Source: an uncultured Eubacteriales bacterium
GTDB taxonomy: Bacteria > Bacillota > Clostridia > Oscillospirales > CAG-272
NCBI GenBank assembly: GCA_934500855.1
Contig: CAKSUH010000032.1
Location: forward strand, 1-10,798
Reading direction: 5' to 3'
Length of the DNA stretch: 10,798 bases
The notes under the pieces were generated by a model. The model ran no database searches, was not told the DNA's origin, and saw only the letters and a program-made list of their open reading frames with translations. Below, piece after piece: positions 2,943 through 9,321 of the stretch; within the stretch, counting starts at the first letter, position 1; each line of letters opens with the position of its first letter. A program made the translations under genes and the position numbers.

Positions 2943-4031
2943 ATGAGAATGAACCTGACGAAACAGACTCCGAAACACCTCGCGAAACAAAAAATGACCC
3001 CCGGATTTTTCGGGAAGCTCCTGTCTATGGTCGGATTGCTGAGCCTGCTGCTCGGCTGCGTAAGCCTGCCCGCCCTCGGAGCGGCGGAAACAACGCCCTC
3101 CGTGCGGATTGAACACCATAACCTTGCCTTCGGAAACGAGGTGTACCTGCTCTATGCCGTCAAAACCGAGGGGGTCGGAAAGACCGACAAGCCCTTTATG
3201 GAATTTCGCGTTGAAAACGAGGATCTGTCCTCTCCCGATGCGGTTTGTCGGGAGTTCGAGTACCGCCCGCTGGATGAGGGAGATACGGAACCCTACTATA
3301 TCTTTGCCTTTACAAAACTGAACGCCGCGCAGATGGCGGATACGGTCTACGCCCGCGCGGGTGTGACGGTGGACGGCGTGACCTACTACAGCGAAACGGA
3401 CGCCTACAGCATCTGCGAGTATGCGGCAGGGAAGTTGGGATTGATGCGCGAAAAAACCGCAACCGAGGACCAAGCTCTGCGCGAACTGTTGCAGTCCATG
3501 TTGGAATACGGAAGCATGGCGCAGAAGTATCTGAAGTATCGGACTGACTGCCTTGCAACGGAATACTGCCTGACCTTCGGAGAGGATGAAACGCCGACGG
3601 CAGGGATTCGGTACGAAACGAAAGCAGACGGGACGGCGGAAGCGGTCGGATACGATGGGACCGAGGGAAGAGTGGTCATTGCAAGGACGGATCCCGAAAC
3701 GGGCTTGCGGGTGACCTCGATCAGAGCGAAAGCCTTTATGGGAAACAAAACCATCACGGAGGTAGTGATTCCGGAGACGGTGGAAACGATCGGAGACGAG
3801 GCGTTCAAGGGATGCTCGAACCTGAAGAAAGTATCGCTTCCCGCGTCCCTGACCAAACTCGGGCGGTTATCTCTCCCGGACGGAGACCAACTGGAACAGC
3901 TTTACTATGCGGGTACGGTGAATCAACTGGAAACGCTTATGGCAAACAGCAAAGGCTGGGCGATGACTTATCAGTACTACTTTGTATGCGGCGACGGTGA
4001 AGAGTACAGACATTATTCTCCCGAGTTTTGA
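2943..4031 (+). CDS. Secreted BspA-type leucine-rich-repeat surface protein
   Basis: 362 residues. AGGAG (2926-2930) precedes ATG 2943; a second ATG at 2949 is an alternative start. A basic N-terminus is followed by a hydrophobic core (about 22-38) ending LLGC at 36-39. This would serve as a lipobox with Cys39 lipidated, although an ALGA signal-peptidase-I-type site lies just behind at 44-47. Residues about 53-210 form a domain I have seen in exported proteins of gut Clostridia, with the signature YAVK..., ADTVYARA, VTYYSETDAYSICEYA and a MLEYGSMAQKYLKY helix. Residues 257-307 are two BspA/LRR_5 repeats (AFMGNKTITEVVIPETV, IGDEAFKGCSNLKKVSLP). The end has the YYAGT...W...Y.F.CGDG motif that often closes such LRR stretches. 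The likely role is adhesion or carbohydrate/protein binding at the cell surface. No sortase signal, S-layer or dockerin module is present. Confidence 0.85.
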   Translation: MRMNLTKQTPKHLAKQKMTPGFFGKLLSMVGLLSLLLGCVSLPALGAAETTPSVRIEHHNLAFGNEVYLLYAVKTEGVGKTDKPFMEFRVENEDLSSPDAVCREFEYRPLDEGDTEPYYIFAFTKLNAAQMADTVYARAGVTVDGVTYYSETDAYSICEYAAGKLGLMREKTATEDQALRELLQSMLEYGSMAQKYLKYRTDCLATEYCLTFGEDETPTAGIRYETKADGTAEAVGYDGTEGRVVIARTDPETGLRVTSIRAKAFMGNKTITEVVIPETVETIGDEAFKGCSNLKKVSLPASLTKLGRLSLPDGDQLEQLYYAGTVNQLETLMANSKGWAMTYQYYFVCGDGEEYRHYSPEF

Positions 4032-4285: not shown

Positions 4286-4528
4286 TTACTCCTCTTCGTG
4301 CGGGTCGGAGTCGTCGACGATGTAGTCCTTAATCAAACGGTAAATTTCGTTTTCGGATTCGCAGAACACCTGGTTCCACTCCATGGTGTACATGGCTCCC
4401 AGAAGAGACTTTCCGTTGACGGTGAAGTTTTCCCCATCGGTCAGGGTGATCTTTCCGGCGTTCTTGCTTGCCATCTTGACAAAGTTGTTGACATCGCTCA
4501 TGGTATCAAGTCTGATTCTGTATCTCAT
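4286..4528 (-). CDS. HPr-like protein lacking the phosphorylatable histidine
   Basis: 80 residues. The sequence follows the HPr fold pattern: MSDVNNFVKMASK (first helix region), then GKITLTDG, then GKSLLGAM (39-46), and an acidic C-terminus. In PTS HPr the first helix is preceded by a GxHARPA loop with the catalytic His15; here that loop reads LDTMSDV and has no histidine. The segment around Ser41 (KSLLGAM) matches the HPr-kinase Ser46 region. The protein is thus probably not a sugar-phosphate carrier but a regulatory relative, in the sense of Crh, although not Crh itself. Its ATG (4526-4528) overlaps the Nudix stop TGA (4525-4527) as ATGA, with a GGA-rich ribosome site some 8 nt upstream, so translation is probably coupled. 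It is the last gene of the minus-strand operon. Confidence 0.75.
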   Translation of the reverse strand: MRYRIRLDTMSDVNNFVKMASKNAGKITLTDGENFTVNGKSLLGAMYTMEWNQVFCESENEIYRLIKDYIVDDSDPHEEE

Positions 4529-5145
4529 TTTTTCTTCCTTTCTTGCGGGTCCCCATGACCGTTCAGTTTCGGCTTGCGGTTCCCGTCTTTGCTTTTTTCT
4601 TTTCCGTAAACAGTTTTCGGAGCAATGGCGCGAGTATTTTCGGCGCTCTCCATACGATCATTTTCATCTGCCGCACCTCCCTTTTTGCAGTTGGTTTCTG
4701 CTAAAGGATATGCTGTGCGGCGTTTTTTTGTGCTCAGGACCCGCAGGGCGGCGCGCAGGATCCGTCGGTCGTTTTCGTGCGTCAGGACTTTTTCCGCTTC
4801 ATCCAGCGGAATCCATTCCACTTCGGCGATTTCGCCCTCTTGCGGATGGGTTTCGGTCTGCTTGGTTTCCGTGAGGAAATAGACAACCTCTTTCTTGACC
4901 CCCGGCATCGGGCAATAGTGCACGGTCCGTCGGAAACCGCAGGTAGGGGAGAGGCGGATCCGTACCGCCGTTTCCTCCATAACTTCGCGCATGGCGGTCA
5001 TGGTTTCCGTTTCTCCCTTTTCCATGTGACCCTTCGGAAAGGAGCGGTGCCCGCCTGCTTTATGACGGATCATCAGAATATACGGTTTTCCGTCTTTCGG
5101 GTCGCGCCGTATGACCAGCGCCCCGCAGGATTTTTCATGCTTCAT
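4525..5145 (-). CDS. Nudix hydrolase, Ap4A-hydrolase-like, with an unusual 3' extension
   Basis: 206 residues as read. AAAGGA (plus 5153-5158) lies 7 nt before ATG 5145. The Nudix box spans 39-61 (G39, E45, R53-E54, E57-E58), with Ala60 in place of the usual Gly. The preceding KSCGALV and HRSFPKGHMEKGE match bis(5'-nucleosyl)-tetraphosphatase-type enzymes, which cleave dinucleoside polyphosphates using Mg2+ bound by the box glutamates. Members have about 135-150 residues, and the fold here should end near residue 138. The remaining 65 or so residues are hydrophilic, low in complexity and overlap the spoVM-like gene. An A7 run (plus 4723-4729) sits at codons 139-141. A -1 shift there stops after about 160 codons at TGA 4666-4664, overlapping the spoVM-like ATG. 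The tail is therefore of doubtful function. The Nudix call itself is sure; the substrate is inferred. Confidence 0.88.
   Translation of the reverse strand: MKHEKSCGALVIRRDPKDGKPYILMIRHKAGGHRSFPKGHMEKGETETMTAMREVMEETAVRIRLSPTCGFRRTVHYCPMPGVKKEVVYFLTETKQTETHPQEGEIAEVEWIPLDEAEKVLTHENDRRILRAALRVLSTKKRRTAYPLAETNCKKGGAADENDRMESAENTRAIAPKTVYGKEKSKDGNRKPKLNGHGDPQERKKK
4563..4667 (-). CDS. spoVM: SpoVM-like spore-coat-assembly mini-protein, nested in the Nudix 3' tail
   Basis: A 34-codon frame: ATG at 4667-4665, TGA at 4565-4563. A near-perfect ribosome site GGGAGG (plus 4676-4681) lies 8 nt before the ATG. The peptide begins MKMIVWRAPKILAPLLRKLF. Aligned without gaps to Bacillus SpoVM (26 residues, beginning MKFYTIKLPKFLGGIVRAML as I remember it), Met1, Lys2, Pro9, Lys10, Leu12 and Arg17 are identical, and the basic residue 7 and hydrophobic positions 15, 16 and 19 are conserved in kind. 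Known SpoVM is an amphipathic helix that recognises the curved forespore membrane and anchors SpoIVA; Pro9 matters for that. Here the helix is followed by a basic tail of about 14 residues. The gene is entirely inside the Nudix frame and is followed 34 nt later by the HPr-like start. Length makes any homology call uncertain, but start, spacing and residue pattern agree. Confidence 0.75.
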   Translation of the reverse strand: MKMIVWRAPKILAPLLRKLFTEKKKAKTGTASRN

Positions 5146-5205
5146 GACGCGTTCCTTTGGTGGGATGTTTGGAAGGGAGAGGAAAGACCTTGGAGGCGCA
5201 GGGAG

Positions 5206-5274
5206 ACCCCTTTCGGAGGGGTGCTCAACGCGGCAAAGCCGCTATTGACAAGATTTTGCGTTGCAAAATCTGTC
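5206..5274 (-). repeat. Row of three hairpins in the Nudix operon leader
   Basis: Three back-to-back inverted repeats: ACCCCT/AGGGGT (5206-5211, 5217-5222), GCGGC/GCCGC (5230-5234, 5238-5242), and AGATTTTGC/GCAAAATCT (5251-5259, 5263-5271) extended by GAC/GTC with one bulged A. They lie downstream of the minus-strand promoter at 5469-5498, hence in the transcribed leader. This serial-hairpin look suggests a dispersed intergenic repeat or a structured leader. There is no coding sense. Confidence 0.55.
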
Positions 5275-5306
5275 ACCTACCCTCCAAACCTCCCTGACCC
5301 TCCCCG

Positions 5307-5388
5307 AACTTCCCTGCACGGCAACCGCCGATTCGGTTTGTGGGGATTTCCCGCGTTCTTGAAACGGCGGTTGCTGTACAGGGAAGTT
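5307..5388 (-). repeat. 24-bp near-perfect inverted repeat in the Nudix operon leader
   Basis: Arms 5307-5330 (AACTTCCCTG...) and 5365-5388 pair at 22 of 24 positions, plus one G-U wobble and one C-A mismatch. The spacer is 34 nt. Next to it, at 5280-5305, the minus strand carries four runs of at least three G (5302-5305, 5298-5300, 5292-5294, 5280-5282). The differing bases show that the arms are diverging copies. It could be a small non-autonomous repeat or a strong leader hairpin. Confidence 0.65.
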
Positions 5389-5468
5389 TCGGTCGTTTGG
5401 GAGGTGGGCTTTTCATGGTGCGGCTTCGCACTTGATTGGCGGGCGGAATCTCGGCACTCATGTAATGG

Positions 5469-5498
5469 ATTGTACAGTCGGTAATAAGTAACATTCAA
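5469..5498 (-). promoter_or_regulatory. Promoter of the Nudix / spoVM-like / HPr-like operon
   Basis: On the minus strand TTGAAT (plus 5493-5498) and TACAAT (plus 5469-5474) are separated by 18 nt. Transcription would begin near 5462 and give a leader of about 317 nt before the Nudix ATG. A vegetative promoter is what the sequence shows. A sporulation-specific sigma site was not evident, which is of note because SpoVM is made in the mother cell in Bacillus. Confidence 0.6.
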
Positions 5499-5576
5499 CC
5501 GAAGCGGAACGACCCGCGTGTCTTTCCGCCCCGATCATCAACTAACCTGAACCATTTCTATCCGGTAGCGGAGAGA

Positions 5577-5617
5577 AACGGCATGCCGTTGTCCAAATCC
5601 CGCTGGACGGGATTTGG
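5577..5617. repeat. Palindrome plus hairpin between infB terminator and Nudix promoter
   Basis: AACGGCATGCCGTT (5577-5590) is a perfect 14-bp palindrome. Three nt further, CCAAATCCCG (5593-5602) and CGGGATTTGG (5608-5617) form a perfect 10-bp hairpin with a 5-nt loop. There is no T-run on either side, so these are not simple terminators. The function is unknown. Confidence 0.55.
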
Positions 5618-5719
5618 CTCGGAGCAGCCGGAATTCGTAGCACGGAATATGGCTACACAAAAGTTTGTACCACATAAAGACAGATTCAAAAAAACAATTT
5701 GGGTAAAGTTCTTGGGTCA

Positions 5720-5767
5720 AGGGGCTTCTTTCAAGAAGCCCCTGCAGGGTTCGGGACAGAGTCCCGA
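5720..5767 (-). terminator. Double hairpin ending the nusA-infB operon
   Basis: On the minus strand, 7 nt after the infB stop, lies TCGGGAC/GTCCCGA (5751-5757, 5761-5767). A second stem AGGGGCTTCT/AGAAGCCCCT (5720-5729, 5734-5743) follows. Neither has an immediate T-run; a T7 tract comes only about 30 nt later. The pair probably ends or stabilises the operon transcript. Confidence 0.65.
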
Positions 5768-5774
5768 GGTCTTT

Positions 5775-8700
5775 TTACACCTGAATCTGCTCCATGATAT
5801 ACGCTTCGAGAATGTCGCCAACCTTGATGTCGTTGAACTTTTCAACGCCGACGCCGCACTCGTATCCGGAGGCGACCTCTTTCACATCATCCTTGAAGCG
5901 GCGGAGAGAGGACACTTTATCCTCAAAAATCACAACGCTGTCGCGCAGAACGCGGATCTGGGACTGGCGGGTAATCTTGCCGTCCTGCACATAGCAACCC
6001 GCAATGGTACCGACATTCGGCACATGGATTGTCTGCCGAACCTCGGCGTGACCGAGCAGGACTTCTTTGAACTTCGGCGCGAGCATTCCCTTCATTGCGG
6101 CTTCGATTTCGCCGATGCAATCGTAGATAACGCGGTAGGTGCGGATATCGACCTTCTGGCGTTCTGCGGAATCCAGCGCGGTCTTGTCGGGACGGACATT
6201 GAAGCCGACGATAATGGCATCGGAAGCCGCCGCAAGCGTGACATCGCCTTCGGTGATGCCGCCCGCCGCCGCATGAATGACATGGACCTTCACCTCATCG
6301 CAGGAGAGCTTTTCAAGCGACTGCTTGACTGCCTCTGCCGAGCCGCCCACATCCGCCTTGACGATGATGTTGAGCGTCTTGACGCCTTCGGAAATCTGTG
6401 CGAACAGATCGTTCAGATTTGCGCGTGCGTTTGCCTTGAACACATCTTCCTTTGCCTGTGCGCGCCGCTGATCTGCCAGCGTCCGCGCCATTCTTTCGTC
6501 CTCGACCGCCTGAAATTCGTCGCCGGAGGAGGGGACTTCGGCAAGACCTGTGATCTCCACGGGAACCGACGGACCCGCATCCTTGAGCATTTTGCCCGTG
6601 TGATCCATCATCGACCGTACACGACCGACTGCCGTTCCCGCAATGATGATGTCGCCGCCGTGAAGCGTACCGTTCTGAACCAGCACCGTTGCAACGGGAC
6701 CTTTGCCCTTGTCGAGTTTCGCTTCGATAACGATACCCTTTGCGCGACGGTTCGGGTTGGCTTTCAGCTCCTTCATGTCGGCAACCAGCAGAACGCTTTC
6801 GAGCAGGTCGTCGATCCCTTCGTGCTTCAGCGCCGAGACGGGAACGCAGATGACATCTCCGCCCCATTCCTCGGGAACCAGACCGTACTTGGTCAGCTCG
6901 GTTTTGATGGCGTCGGGGTTGGCACCCGGCTTATCCATTTTGTTGATTGCAACGACAATGTCGATGCCCGCCGCCTTTGCGTGGTTGATTGCCTCAACGG
7001 TCTGCGGCATCACGCCGTCATCCGCCGCAACGACAAGGATTGCGATATCGGTCGCCATCGCGCCTCTTGCACGCATGGCGGTAAAGGCTTCGTGTCCCGG
7101 GGTGTCAAGGAAGGTGATTTCTCTGCCCTTGACCTTGACGCGGTAAGCGCCGATGTGCTGGGTGATACCGCCCGCTTCTCCGGAGGTCACATGCGTGTTG
7201 CGGATGGCGTCCAGAATGGAGGTCTTTCCGTGGTCGACATGACCCATGACGCAGACAACAGGCGCGCGGGGAACCAGCTGTTCCTCGGAATCCTGTGCTT
7301 CGTCGAACAGGCGGTCCTCGATGCTGACCACCACTTCATGCGTTGCTTCCACACCGAATTCGTCCGCTACTAACGCGGCAGTGTCGAAGTCGATGCTCTG
7401 GTTGACCGTAACCATCATGCCCATCATGAAAAGTTTCTTCACAACCTCGCCTGCCGTGACCATCAGCTTGGAAGCAAGCTGGCTGACAAGAATCTCGTCG
7501 GGCAACTCGATGGAGGTCGGGCGCTTGATGATGGGGGACTGCATCTGCGACGGGCGCTTGCCGCCTCTGGCATTCTTGCCGAATGCCTGTTTGCCGCCCG
7601 TGCGTCCGAAGGAACCCTTACCCTGCGGTCCCGACTGCTGCTGAGGCGCTTTTTTGACCTGCTGTTTGCCGCCGCGCAGGTTGCTCTGCTCACGGTCGGA
7701 AACAAAGGTGTCCAGCTTCTCATCGTATTTGGAAAGGTCGACATTGCCTTCGGTTCCTCTCGTGTTGACCACGCGGGGACCCTTCAGCGTGCCGTCCGGA
7801 TTGACATTTGTCGAAGCGCCGCGCACGATCGGCTGTGCCTTGAAGGTTTCGCGCGGTCCGCTCGGAACGAAATCGCCCTTGTCGCCGCCGAACCGTCCGC
7901 CGCGGTTGCCGTTCTTGTTTCCGCCGCGGTTGCCGCCGTTGCCGCCGAAGTTGCCCGTCGGTCTCTGACCGCCGAAGGAACCGCTGCCGAAGCCGCTGCC
8001 GCCCGTCGGTCTCTGCCCTCCGAAGGAGCCGTTTCCGCCGAAGGAACCGCTCGTCGGTCTCTGACCGTAGGTTCCGCCCGCGGGTCTCTGACCATAGGTG
8101 CCGGAAGCGTTGCCGTTTCCTGCGCCGAAGCCGCCCGTGCGACCCTGCTGTGCACCGTAAGCGCCGGTCTGCGGACGGGGCTGATAGCCGCCGCTCTGAC
8201 CGTTCTGTCTGGAGGGTGCGGAAGAATAGGGCCGTGCGCCGGTCTGTGCGCCGCCTGCGGGACGGTTTGCACCGTAGCCTGCGGCGGGAGTCTGTGTCGG
8301 TCTCTGCATCGGGGTTCCGTTCTGCGGACGGATTCCCGAATTGCCCGCAACGGATGCGGGACGCTGTGCGGAGGGAGCGGCGGGAGTCTGCGAAGGAGCC
8401 TGCGCGGCGGGCTTTGCCGTCTCTGCCTGCTTCGGCGCGGCGGTCGGTGCGGTTTTGGGCGCATCCGCCTTGGCGGGAGCAACAGGAGCCGCAGGAGCCG
8501 GAGCCGCGGAAGCTGCCGGCTTTGCCTGCACGGCGGGTTTCTTTGCCGCCTCGGGAGCCGACTCTGCCTTCGGTTTTGCTTCGGCTTTTGCCTTCACCTC
8601 GGGCTTTGTTTCGGGCTTTGCCTCGGATTTCGGCTCCGCTTTGACGGGGGTCGCTTCGGGAGCGGACTCCGCCTTCGGCTTTGCCTCCTCTTTCTTCTTT

Positions 8701-8936
8701 GCGGGCTTCTTTTTGGACGGAATATAGGACTTTCCTTCCAGATAGTTGCCGATGTCGCTGATCTGATGCTCGCCCGTCAGCGAATCGAACAGGATGTCAA
8801 ATTCCGCCGGTTCGAGCGATTTCTGAACCGCGACCTCCTTTCCTCGCTTTGCGAGCATATCGCAAAGGTCCTTGCTTTTCAGTCCGAGGTCCTTCGCCAG
8901 CTTGTTGATTTTGAACTGTGTTTTGTTATCAGCCAT
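5775..8936 (-). CDS. infB: Translation initiation factor IF-2
   Basis: 1053 residues. IF2 is the GTPase that places initiator fMet-tRNA on the 30S subunit and promotes 50S joining. The start chosen is ATG 8936-8934, giving [18 protein letters not shown] behind AGGAGG (plus 8941-8946) at 4 nt; 15 further codons upstream are open but have no ribosome site. Domains: N-terminal IF2N helix bundle (1 to about 55); Ala/Pro/Lys/Glu-rich linker (about 60-200); Gly/Gln/Arg/Pro/Ser-rich linker with [13 protein letters not shown] repeats (about 200-360); second IF2N domain (about 470-530). The G domain has G1 GHVDHGKT 565-572, G3 DTPGHE 611-616, G4 NKMD 665-668 and a G5-like VSALK. Beta-barrel and C-terminal fMet-tRNA-binding domains follow. 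It begins 37 nt after ylxQ and is the last gene of the operon. Its length exceeds the B. subtilis protein (about 716) mainly through the linker. Confidence 0.98.
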
Positions 8937-8973
8937 ATTTCCTCCTGATTCGCATCTGCCGCAGACAGATGCG

Positions 8974-9321
8974 TCACGCATTGTGATTCTCGTTCCGTGT
9001 GCCCGGTGAATCCAGTGTACGCTTCACCAGTCGGCACAGATTTTCGTCGGTGATTGCGACCGCCGCAAGTCTGCCGCTTTGTCCGACCGCCCGCGCAAGC
9101 GTTTCGCCGTCCTGCGCGATGCGGACCGTCGGTACGCCGTAGTAGCGGCATTTGTCCTCCAGCCGCTTGTCGGTTGCCGGGGAATTGTCGGCGGCAAGGA
9201 CCGTGAGCATCGGCTTATGCCTGCCCGCCAGCGCCTCGCAGATCATCGGAGTCCCGCAGACCAGCGCCCGCGCCTTGGCGCAAAGTCCCAGCGCGCCGAG
9301 CGTGCGGTCAGGCGTTCCCAT
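8974..9321 (-). CDS. ylxQ: L7Ae-family ribosomal protein YlxQ
   Basis: 115 residues if ATG 9321-9319 is used. This start lies inside the ylxR 3' end (14-nt overlap) with GGGAG about 10 nt before it. The longer open frame to 9510 is antisense-like filler over ylxR and is rejected. The pattern [20 protein letters not shown], then [27 protein letters not shown] and [13 protein letters not shown] covers the whole L7Ae/L30e fold. This family binds kink-turn RNA; B. subtilis YlxQ has been described as a K-turn binder of otherwise unclear role. Its place between ylxR and infB is standard for Firmicutes. Confidence 0.9.

Follow-up and report, generated by a model that had tools for sequence, protein, structure and literature searches.

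Gene content of the locus

The minus strand of the window, the whole 10,798-nucleotide stretch of DNA analysed here, carries YlxR- and L7Ae-type ORFs (Pfam), infB, a Nudix gene, a small nested ORF, and an HPr-like gene, in that order and headed by an ORF that we take, by reading, to be nusA-like. The infB gene (IF-2; 5775..8981, minus; TIGR00487, 832 bits) precedes the Nudix gene and is read in the same direction. The Nudix ORF (4525-5145, minus) encodes 206 aa and falls into two parts: a Nudix hydrolase core of residues 1-135 (4741..5145, minus; Pfam PF00293) that is shared with relatives, and an extension of residues 136-206 plus the stop codon (4525..4740, minus) that is absent from the Nudix genes of the readable relatives in the genus. 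The HPr-like gene follows at 4286..4528 on the minus strand, where its ATG overlaps the Nudix stop; its Pfam PTS-HPr match of 14.4 bits is below the 23-bit cut-off. Its product presumably lacks the usual His15 motif and keeps a Ser46-like stretch (NGKSLLGAM), and could possibly be a Crh-like regulator.

The small ORF lies entirely within the Nudix ORF and out of frame to it, at 4563..4667 on the minus strand. It comprises 34 codons and a TGA stop, encodes the peptide MKMIVWRAPKILAPLLRKLFTEKKKAKTGTASRN, and has a GGGAGG ribosome-binding site (4676..4681, minus) 8 nt 5' of its ATG. A preliminary description of this DNA had proposed that this frame is a spoVM-like gene masked by the longer Nudix frame, and the frame, its ribosome site, and the masking are all confirmed here. 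The Nudix extension covers the small gene in its entirety, together with its ribosome site and a promoter box, and ends at the HPr-like ATG.

Similarity to SpoVM

The gap-free match to B. subtilis SpoVM in the preliminary description was reproduced against a reference sequence identical to PDB 2mvh_A: M1, K2, P9, K10, L12, and R17 are identical, as is K25. In an anchored, ungapped BLOSUM62 comparison of residues 2-24, the peptide scores 22, more than any other of the window's 559 start codons gives; the runner-up, a chance frame, has 21, and 19 of 100,000 shuffles of the peptide reach 22. The NCBIfam model SpoVM_broad aligns peptide residues 1-25 with model positions 1-25 of 26 at 15.7 bits (E 0.011), about half of the curated 31-bit cut-off, which is an annotation threshold and not a biological trait. 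Because the pairwise and model scores are marginal, the SpoVM call, taken alone, would be only a lead, and it is the conservation of the frame in relatives that takes it far beyond chance. Pfam gave no family for the peptide.

Like B. subtilis SpoVM (26 aa; PDB 2mvh, 2mvj; NCBIfam NF033436, NF011327), the peptide is the product of a short gene and an amphipathic basic helix, with a similar hydrophobic moment over residues 1-24 (0.41 for the window peptide vs 0.40). Unlike B. subtilis SpoVM, it has 34 aa with a Lys-rich tail, carries Trp6 for Ile6 and Pro14 for Gly14, and is encoded by a gene nested in a Nudix frame. With C. difficile SpoVM it shares a clostridial host and Pro9; that protein is nearly dispensable, going by the title of PMC5607322.

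Conservation in the genus and selection on the frame

Searching GTDB genomes with the Nudix protein gave 120 relatives, from which 80 loci were kept and 27 of those 80 looked at. In the seven closest (L001-L007), the Nudix gene stops 3-24 codons past the match, and between it and the HPr-like gene lies a free-standing ORF that resembles the nested one; no such ORF was seen by eye at that place in the next loci (L008-L020). The genus of G003 comprises 35 genomes, 29 of them with a Nudix match, giving 30 loci that include those of G001-G007. The small ORF is present as a separate gene in 29 of 29 readable Nudix loci of this genus, the count being 29 because the 30th locus, L168, ends just past the Nudix match. 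Its start lies 51-313 nt past the Nudix stop in all 29 loci, and only in the window is it inside the Nudix gene, 143 nt before the end of the Nudix stop. The HPr-like gene lies downstream in the same order in 27 of 30 genus loci. An A/G-rich stretch can be seen by eye 5' of the start in all 29 relatives; the start codon is GTG in L142, L154, and L159, and TTG in L163 and L170. Since the search pattern demanded Lys2, one basic residue, a Pro, and a Leu at set places, the conservation of these residues within the genus was partly selected for.

Two of the checks named in the preliminary description, conservation of the frame in relatives and synonymous-site constraint, came out in favour of the small gene. 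For codons 2-20, compared in 435 pairs from 30 sequences, the spoVM frame has a pN/pS of 0.33, the Nudix frame one of 2.28, and the third frame one of 0.86; pS is 0.75, with synonymous differences close to saturation. The spoVM-like frame is under purifying selection.

Comparison across the family

Profile A1 has 15 members, including the genes of 14 relatives' genomes, and gives one strong match in each of these 14 genomes (E <= 1.5e-12). Because the profile contains those 14 genes, the strong matches arise by construction, and the actual result is the lack of a second one: a second clear spoVM elsewhere, which would have spoken against the proposal, was sought, and none better than E 0.01 was found in the 14 genomes, possibly incomplete as they are. 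A1 had no match in the PDB at E <= 10; B. subtilis SpoVM is present there, so A1 fails to reach it. None of the 14 genomes reaches the curated SpoVM cut-off. Among 37 aligned members, the window included, 19 match the SpoVM model at E <= 0.1 (best E 6.2e-6), and the sister-clade locus L085 scores 24.7 bits. At E <= 10, 6 of 14 control genomes match as well, with only B. subtilis over the cut-off, so weak matches at that loose threshold mean little. Our reading is that the curated SpoVM model fails to span this branch.

K2, P9, L12, and P14 never vary in the 37-member alignment, and L16 and F20 hardly do. Lys2 and Pro9 (each 37/37) are also part of the genus search pattern. The accessible text of PMC5607322 gives Pro9 as the only completely conserved residue among the aligned SpoVM proteins of Bacilli and Clostridia (legend to its Fig. 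1), and reports that in B. subtilis K2A blocks cortex formation and Ile6 is needed for SpoIVA binding. Position 6 is Trp in the window and in 27 of 29 genus loci. Pro14 forms a second invariant proline (37/37) at a position where B. subtilis has Gly. The sister-clade genes (G008-G014; L085-L090, L092) align gap-free with the window and share K2, P9, L12, P14, L16, and F20; unlike the window, they encode peptides of 25-27 aa with Met or Val at position 6, and have no visible Nudix overlap.

Genomic place

The thiN neighbourhood is usual for spoVM, not defining. In B. subtilis we take the gene to lie in the thiN-rpmB neighbourhood, and the preliminary description was right to place the window's gene outside it: in the window and 29 relatives, the small ORF follows the Nudix gene or its core. 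Five of seven genus genomes have thiN, and no SpoVM-like ORF was seen beside it, with loci L109 and L111 cut by a contig end. The sister genomes differ, since thiN and rsgA lie within 3 kb of the spoVM-like gene at five of seven loci (L085, L086, L087, L089, L092); at L088 and L090, no thiN was present in the 3 kb read. Near all seven sister loci is an ORF that we take, by reading, to be asparagine-synthase-like. More widely, 187 of 196 sampled family genomes match the profile at E <= 1, a threshold loose enough to let in chance matches. The best 30 family loci include 18 with thiN or rsgA nearby, 4 that follow a Nudix gene, all of the same genus, and 8 with none of the neighbour genes looked for. 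As the sister and wider-family loci are mostly beside thiN or rsgA, the position after the Nudix gene looks derived, and the one near thiN ancestral.

A putative mother-cell promoter

Upstream of the small gene lies a candidate -10 box for a mother-cell sigma factor of the sigE/sigK type, CATATCCT (4705..4712, minus). Every one of the 30 loci, from the window and 29 relatives, has the motif CATANNNT 36-64 nt 5' of the spoVM-like start. In 2000 Markov simulations, 2.0 loci had it on average and never more than 8, and random stretches taken from these loci averaged 1.2. The motif was first spotted by eye in eight of the 30 (the window and the G001-G007 loci), leaving the other 22 as an independent test. 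The -10 consensus is gCATATACT; 16 bases further 5' lies a G(A/C)A(A/C)(C/A) element, which in the window is the -35-like GCACA (4729..4733, minus). In the column profile of the 30 loci, positions -21 to -17 from the -10 box read G in 21/30, A/C in 25/30, A in 22/30, A/C in 30/30, and C/A in 23/30. The -10 box also occurs at two of four spoIVA genes of the genus, and CATANNNT is upstream of the spoVM-like gene in only four of seven sister loci. From the -10 box in all 30 loci, a mother-cell sigma promoter is predicted for the spoVM-like gene.

In C. difficile, the available text of PMC3789822 describes -10 sequences of sigE and sigK as very similar and their -35 sequences as ATA (sigE) vs AC (sigK), while sigE control of spoVM is reported in the text available from PMC5607322. 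The -35-like element here looks more like the sigK-type AC, and we leave sigE vs sigK undecided.

The lengthened Nudix gene

Other readable loci of the genus end the Nudix gene before spoVM, and the matches of the seven nearest Nudix loci stop at residues 134-148; the Nudix tail is thus itself a derived extension. A search with the tail found four protein clusters that carry it. A search with the whole Nudix protein gave 897 matches at E <= 1e-40, and among the best 120 of these, 14 clusters (P0003-P0016) have 190-249 aa and cover 87-100% of the query, while the other 106 have 140-167 aa and cover 65-75%; no intermediate lengths occur among these 120. The extended proteins are 66-99% identical to that of the window, and P0016 has an N-terminus that looks chimeric. 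Recurrence in 14 clusters makes an error in the window unlikely, and indicates that the extension belongs to one lineage.

The other tails bear on whether they, too, overlap a spoVM. If each position may hold any residue found there in alignment A3 (window excluded), 13 of 14 tails remain compatible, as judged from the proteins, with SpoVM residues 1-20 in the other frame; as many as 13 of their 21 tail residues differ from the window. Under a null of random change from the window, the probability of this is 0.002-0.022 for single tails with 9-13 changes, or 0.03-0.12 if seven key residues only are counted; as the 14 tails are related and the window serves as a stand-in ancestor, these probabilities are dependent and must not be multiplied. 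With P0003-P0006 only, the test is weak (null 0.13-0.18 for 5-6 differences), and P0004 and P0006 are identical over the tested stretch. The incompatible tail is P0014, at Leu12, where its Asp-Arg allows Ile or Thr as read from the genetic code. P0004 permits no Met at codon 1, though a GTG start is possible, as used in three of the genus loci named above. We infer from these protein tails that the spoVM overlap extends to the other 14 clusters.

Conservation along the extension is uneven. Relative to the window, P0004 and P0005 keep 124/135 and 121/135 residues of the Nudix core, 12/13 each over the -10 box and ribosome site, 18/21 and 16/21 over the SpoVM start and first 20 codons, 6/10 and 4/10 over the SpoVM C-tail, 7/7 each at residues 190-196, and 0/10 and 6/10 of the last ten Nudix residues. 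GC3 is 0.45 in the tail vs 0.67 in the core, and the low tail value fits a passive overprint.

Three further details of the tails deserve mention. Nudix residues 190-196, RKPKLNG (4558-4578, minus), at the end of spoVM, are identical in the window, P0003, P0004, P0005, and P0007, an identity explained neither by the variable SpoVM C-tail nor by any recognised signal. The tails of P0010, P0013, and P0016 end like HEIPHQTGHHE, which resembles the start of the HPr-like gene in another frame, and in these clusters the overlap may reach into the HPr-like gene as well. An A AAA AAA heptamer lies in the Nudix frame at 4723-4729 (minus), just 5' of the spoVM promoter box, where a slip would make the Nudix frame terminate close to the spoVM start; we considered this seven-A run as a slippery site for -1 frameshifting and dropped it, as several other tails have residues there that are incompatible with such a run.

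Sporulation genes in relatives

The preliminary description took the gene to imply that the organism makes spores. The core genes it pointed to, spo0A, a sigE-like gene, and spoIVA, are present in relatives; for the organism of the window itself, spore formation is suggested by way of those relatives. Spo0A is over its cut-off in 14 of 14 relatives and, among 14 controls, in B. subtilis only. The Sigma-E model matches in all 14 relatives with none over the cut-off (best 304-333 bits vs 348.6), and in 10 of 14 controls with one over. SpoIVA matches in 12 of 14 relatives, 11 of them over the cut-off, and in no control but B. subtilis; within the window's genus it was found in five of seven genomes, one of them (G002) partial, and the search found none in G001 and G004. 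The Sigma-K model matches in seven of seven genus genomes, all below the cut-off, as is B. subtilis. The best Sigma-K match in G004 and G005 is the same gene as the Sigma-E match, while a separate gene scores better with the Sigma-K model in G001, G003, G006, and G007, and in pieces in G002.

Interpretation and alternatives

We consider it highly probable, at roughly 92%, that the window ORF is a diverged spoVM that was relocated in this genus and that, in one lineage, a lengthened Nudix gene has overprinted. Support for the spoVM-like reading comes from conservation throughout the genus and from the lack of a second strong SpoVM-like match in relatives. By homology with known SpoVM, the product would be a small amphipathic peptide of the membrane, one that labels the surface of the forespore and brings in SpoIVA so that coat formation can begin; its expression, membrane binding, and SpoIVA recruitment are predictions. 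In the genus at large, the gene sits between the Nudix and HPr-like genes, downstream of infB, and has a mother-cell type promoter box and a ribosome site of its own. In the lineage of the window, loss of its stop would then have let the Nudix frame run on, out of frame with spoVM, through the promoter box, the ribosome site, and all of spoVM as far as the HPr-like ATG. When the cell sporulates, the internal promoter would give a transcript that begins within the Nudix tail, and SpoVM would be made from its own start.

Three other accounts of the locus can be weighed against this one. The weak pairwise similarity, with a rival frame at 21 vs 22, and a model score below the curated cut-off are what one would expect if the ORF were a chance out-of-frame reading of the Nudix tail that merely resembles SpoVM, but 29 of 29 readable relatives have it as a separate gene with a ribosome site and promoter box, under purifying selection, and this conservation already refutes a chance frame, to which we give virtually no weight. 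A real mother-cell membrane peptide with a different role, whether derived from SpoVM and put to another job or an unrelated amphipathic peptide of the same pattern, would account for the Trp6 and Pro14 found where B. subtilis has Ile6 and Gly14, for the low model score, and for a -35 element closer to the sigK AC than to the sigE ATA (as given in the available text of PMC3789822). Against it, none of the 14 genomes has a second strong SpoVM-like match, and the sister gene L085, at 24.7 bits, adjoins thiN and rsgA and aligns gap-free, all of which makes a different role improbable. The overlap itself would disappear if the Nudix read-through were an assembly or homopolymer error at the seven A residues (4729-4723), since a run shorter or longer by one A would cut the Nudix protein from 206 to 147 or 160 aa, and the Nudix genes of 29 readable relatives do end early. 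However, 14 other protein clusters carry the same extension, and several of their tails (RTKNHR, RTKSRT, RTSASR) exclude a seven-A run, so that an error of this kind is very improbable.

Returning to the overprinted spoVM, it is conceivable, if rather unlikely, that the overlap is a working switch, in which vegetative Nudix translation blocks spoVM and the mother-cell promoter frees it. Ribosomes on vegetative infB-operon transcripts would cross the spoVM ribosome site and keep SpoVM off, and a short mother-cell transcript, free of Nudix translation, would allow SpoVM to be made only there. The extension may also couple Nudix translation to the HPr-like start.

The available text of PMC3533761 describes SpoVM as rarely recognised in annotation and, for several clostridia, missed by standard searches; the value of 70 listed for spoVM in its Table 2 is taken to mean missed ORFs. 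We found no literature on SpoVM in Ruminococcaceae or Oscillospiraceae in a search whose scope left aside preprints outside PMC and most subscription papers, and titles and abstract openings on nested or overlapping genes in sporulation and on small proteins held no spoVM case. The genus described here is a gut lineage carrying SpoVM versions that score below the curated model's cut-off and lie at a different place. The overlap lineage offers a natural case of a developmental gene and its promoter box wholly inside a neighbour's new tail, and its non-overlapping relatives can serve as controls, which opens the origin of the overlap to study. Alignment A3 also supplies a profile that can help to assess which uncultured Clostridia might form spores.

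Other features of the window

The gap between infB and the Nudix gene (5146-5774) is 629 nt in the window vs 34-226 nt in the relatives measured. It has no Rfam match and no repeat of at least 30 bases, and its ORFs, of at most 73 aa, are on the minus strand only. At 1-1700, a weak HNH-like ORF and a DUF4368 ORF adjoin a tRNA-Leu (1607-1693); DUF4368 is, we assume, linked to recombinases, and this region is possibly the remnant of an integrated element. The plus strand at 2943-4031 encodes a protein that begins with a signal-like stretch and contains a leucine-rich repeat of BspA type (PF13306).
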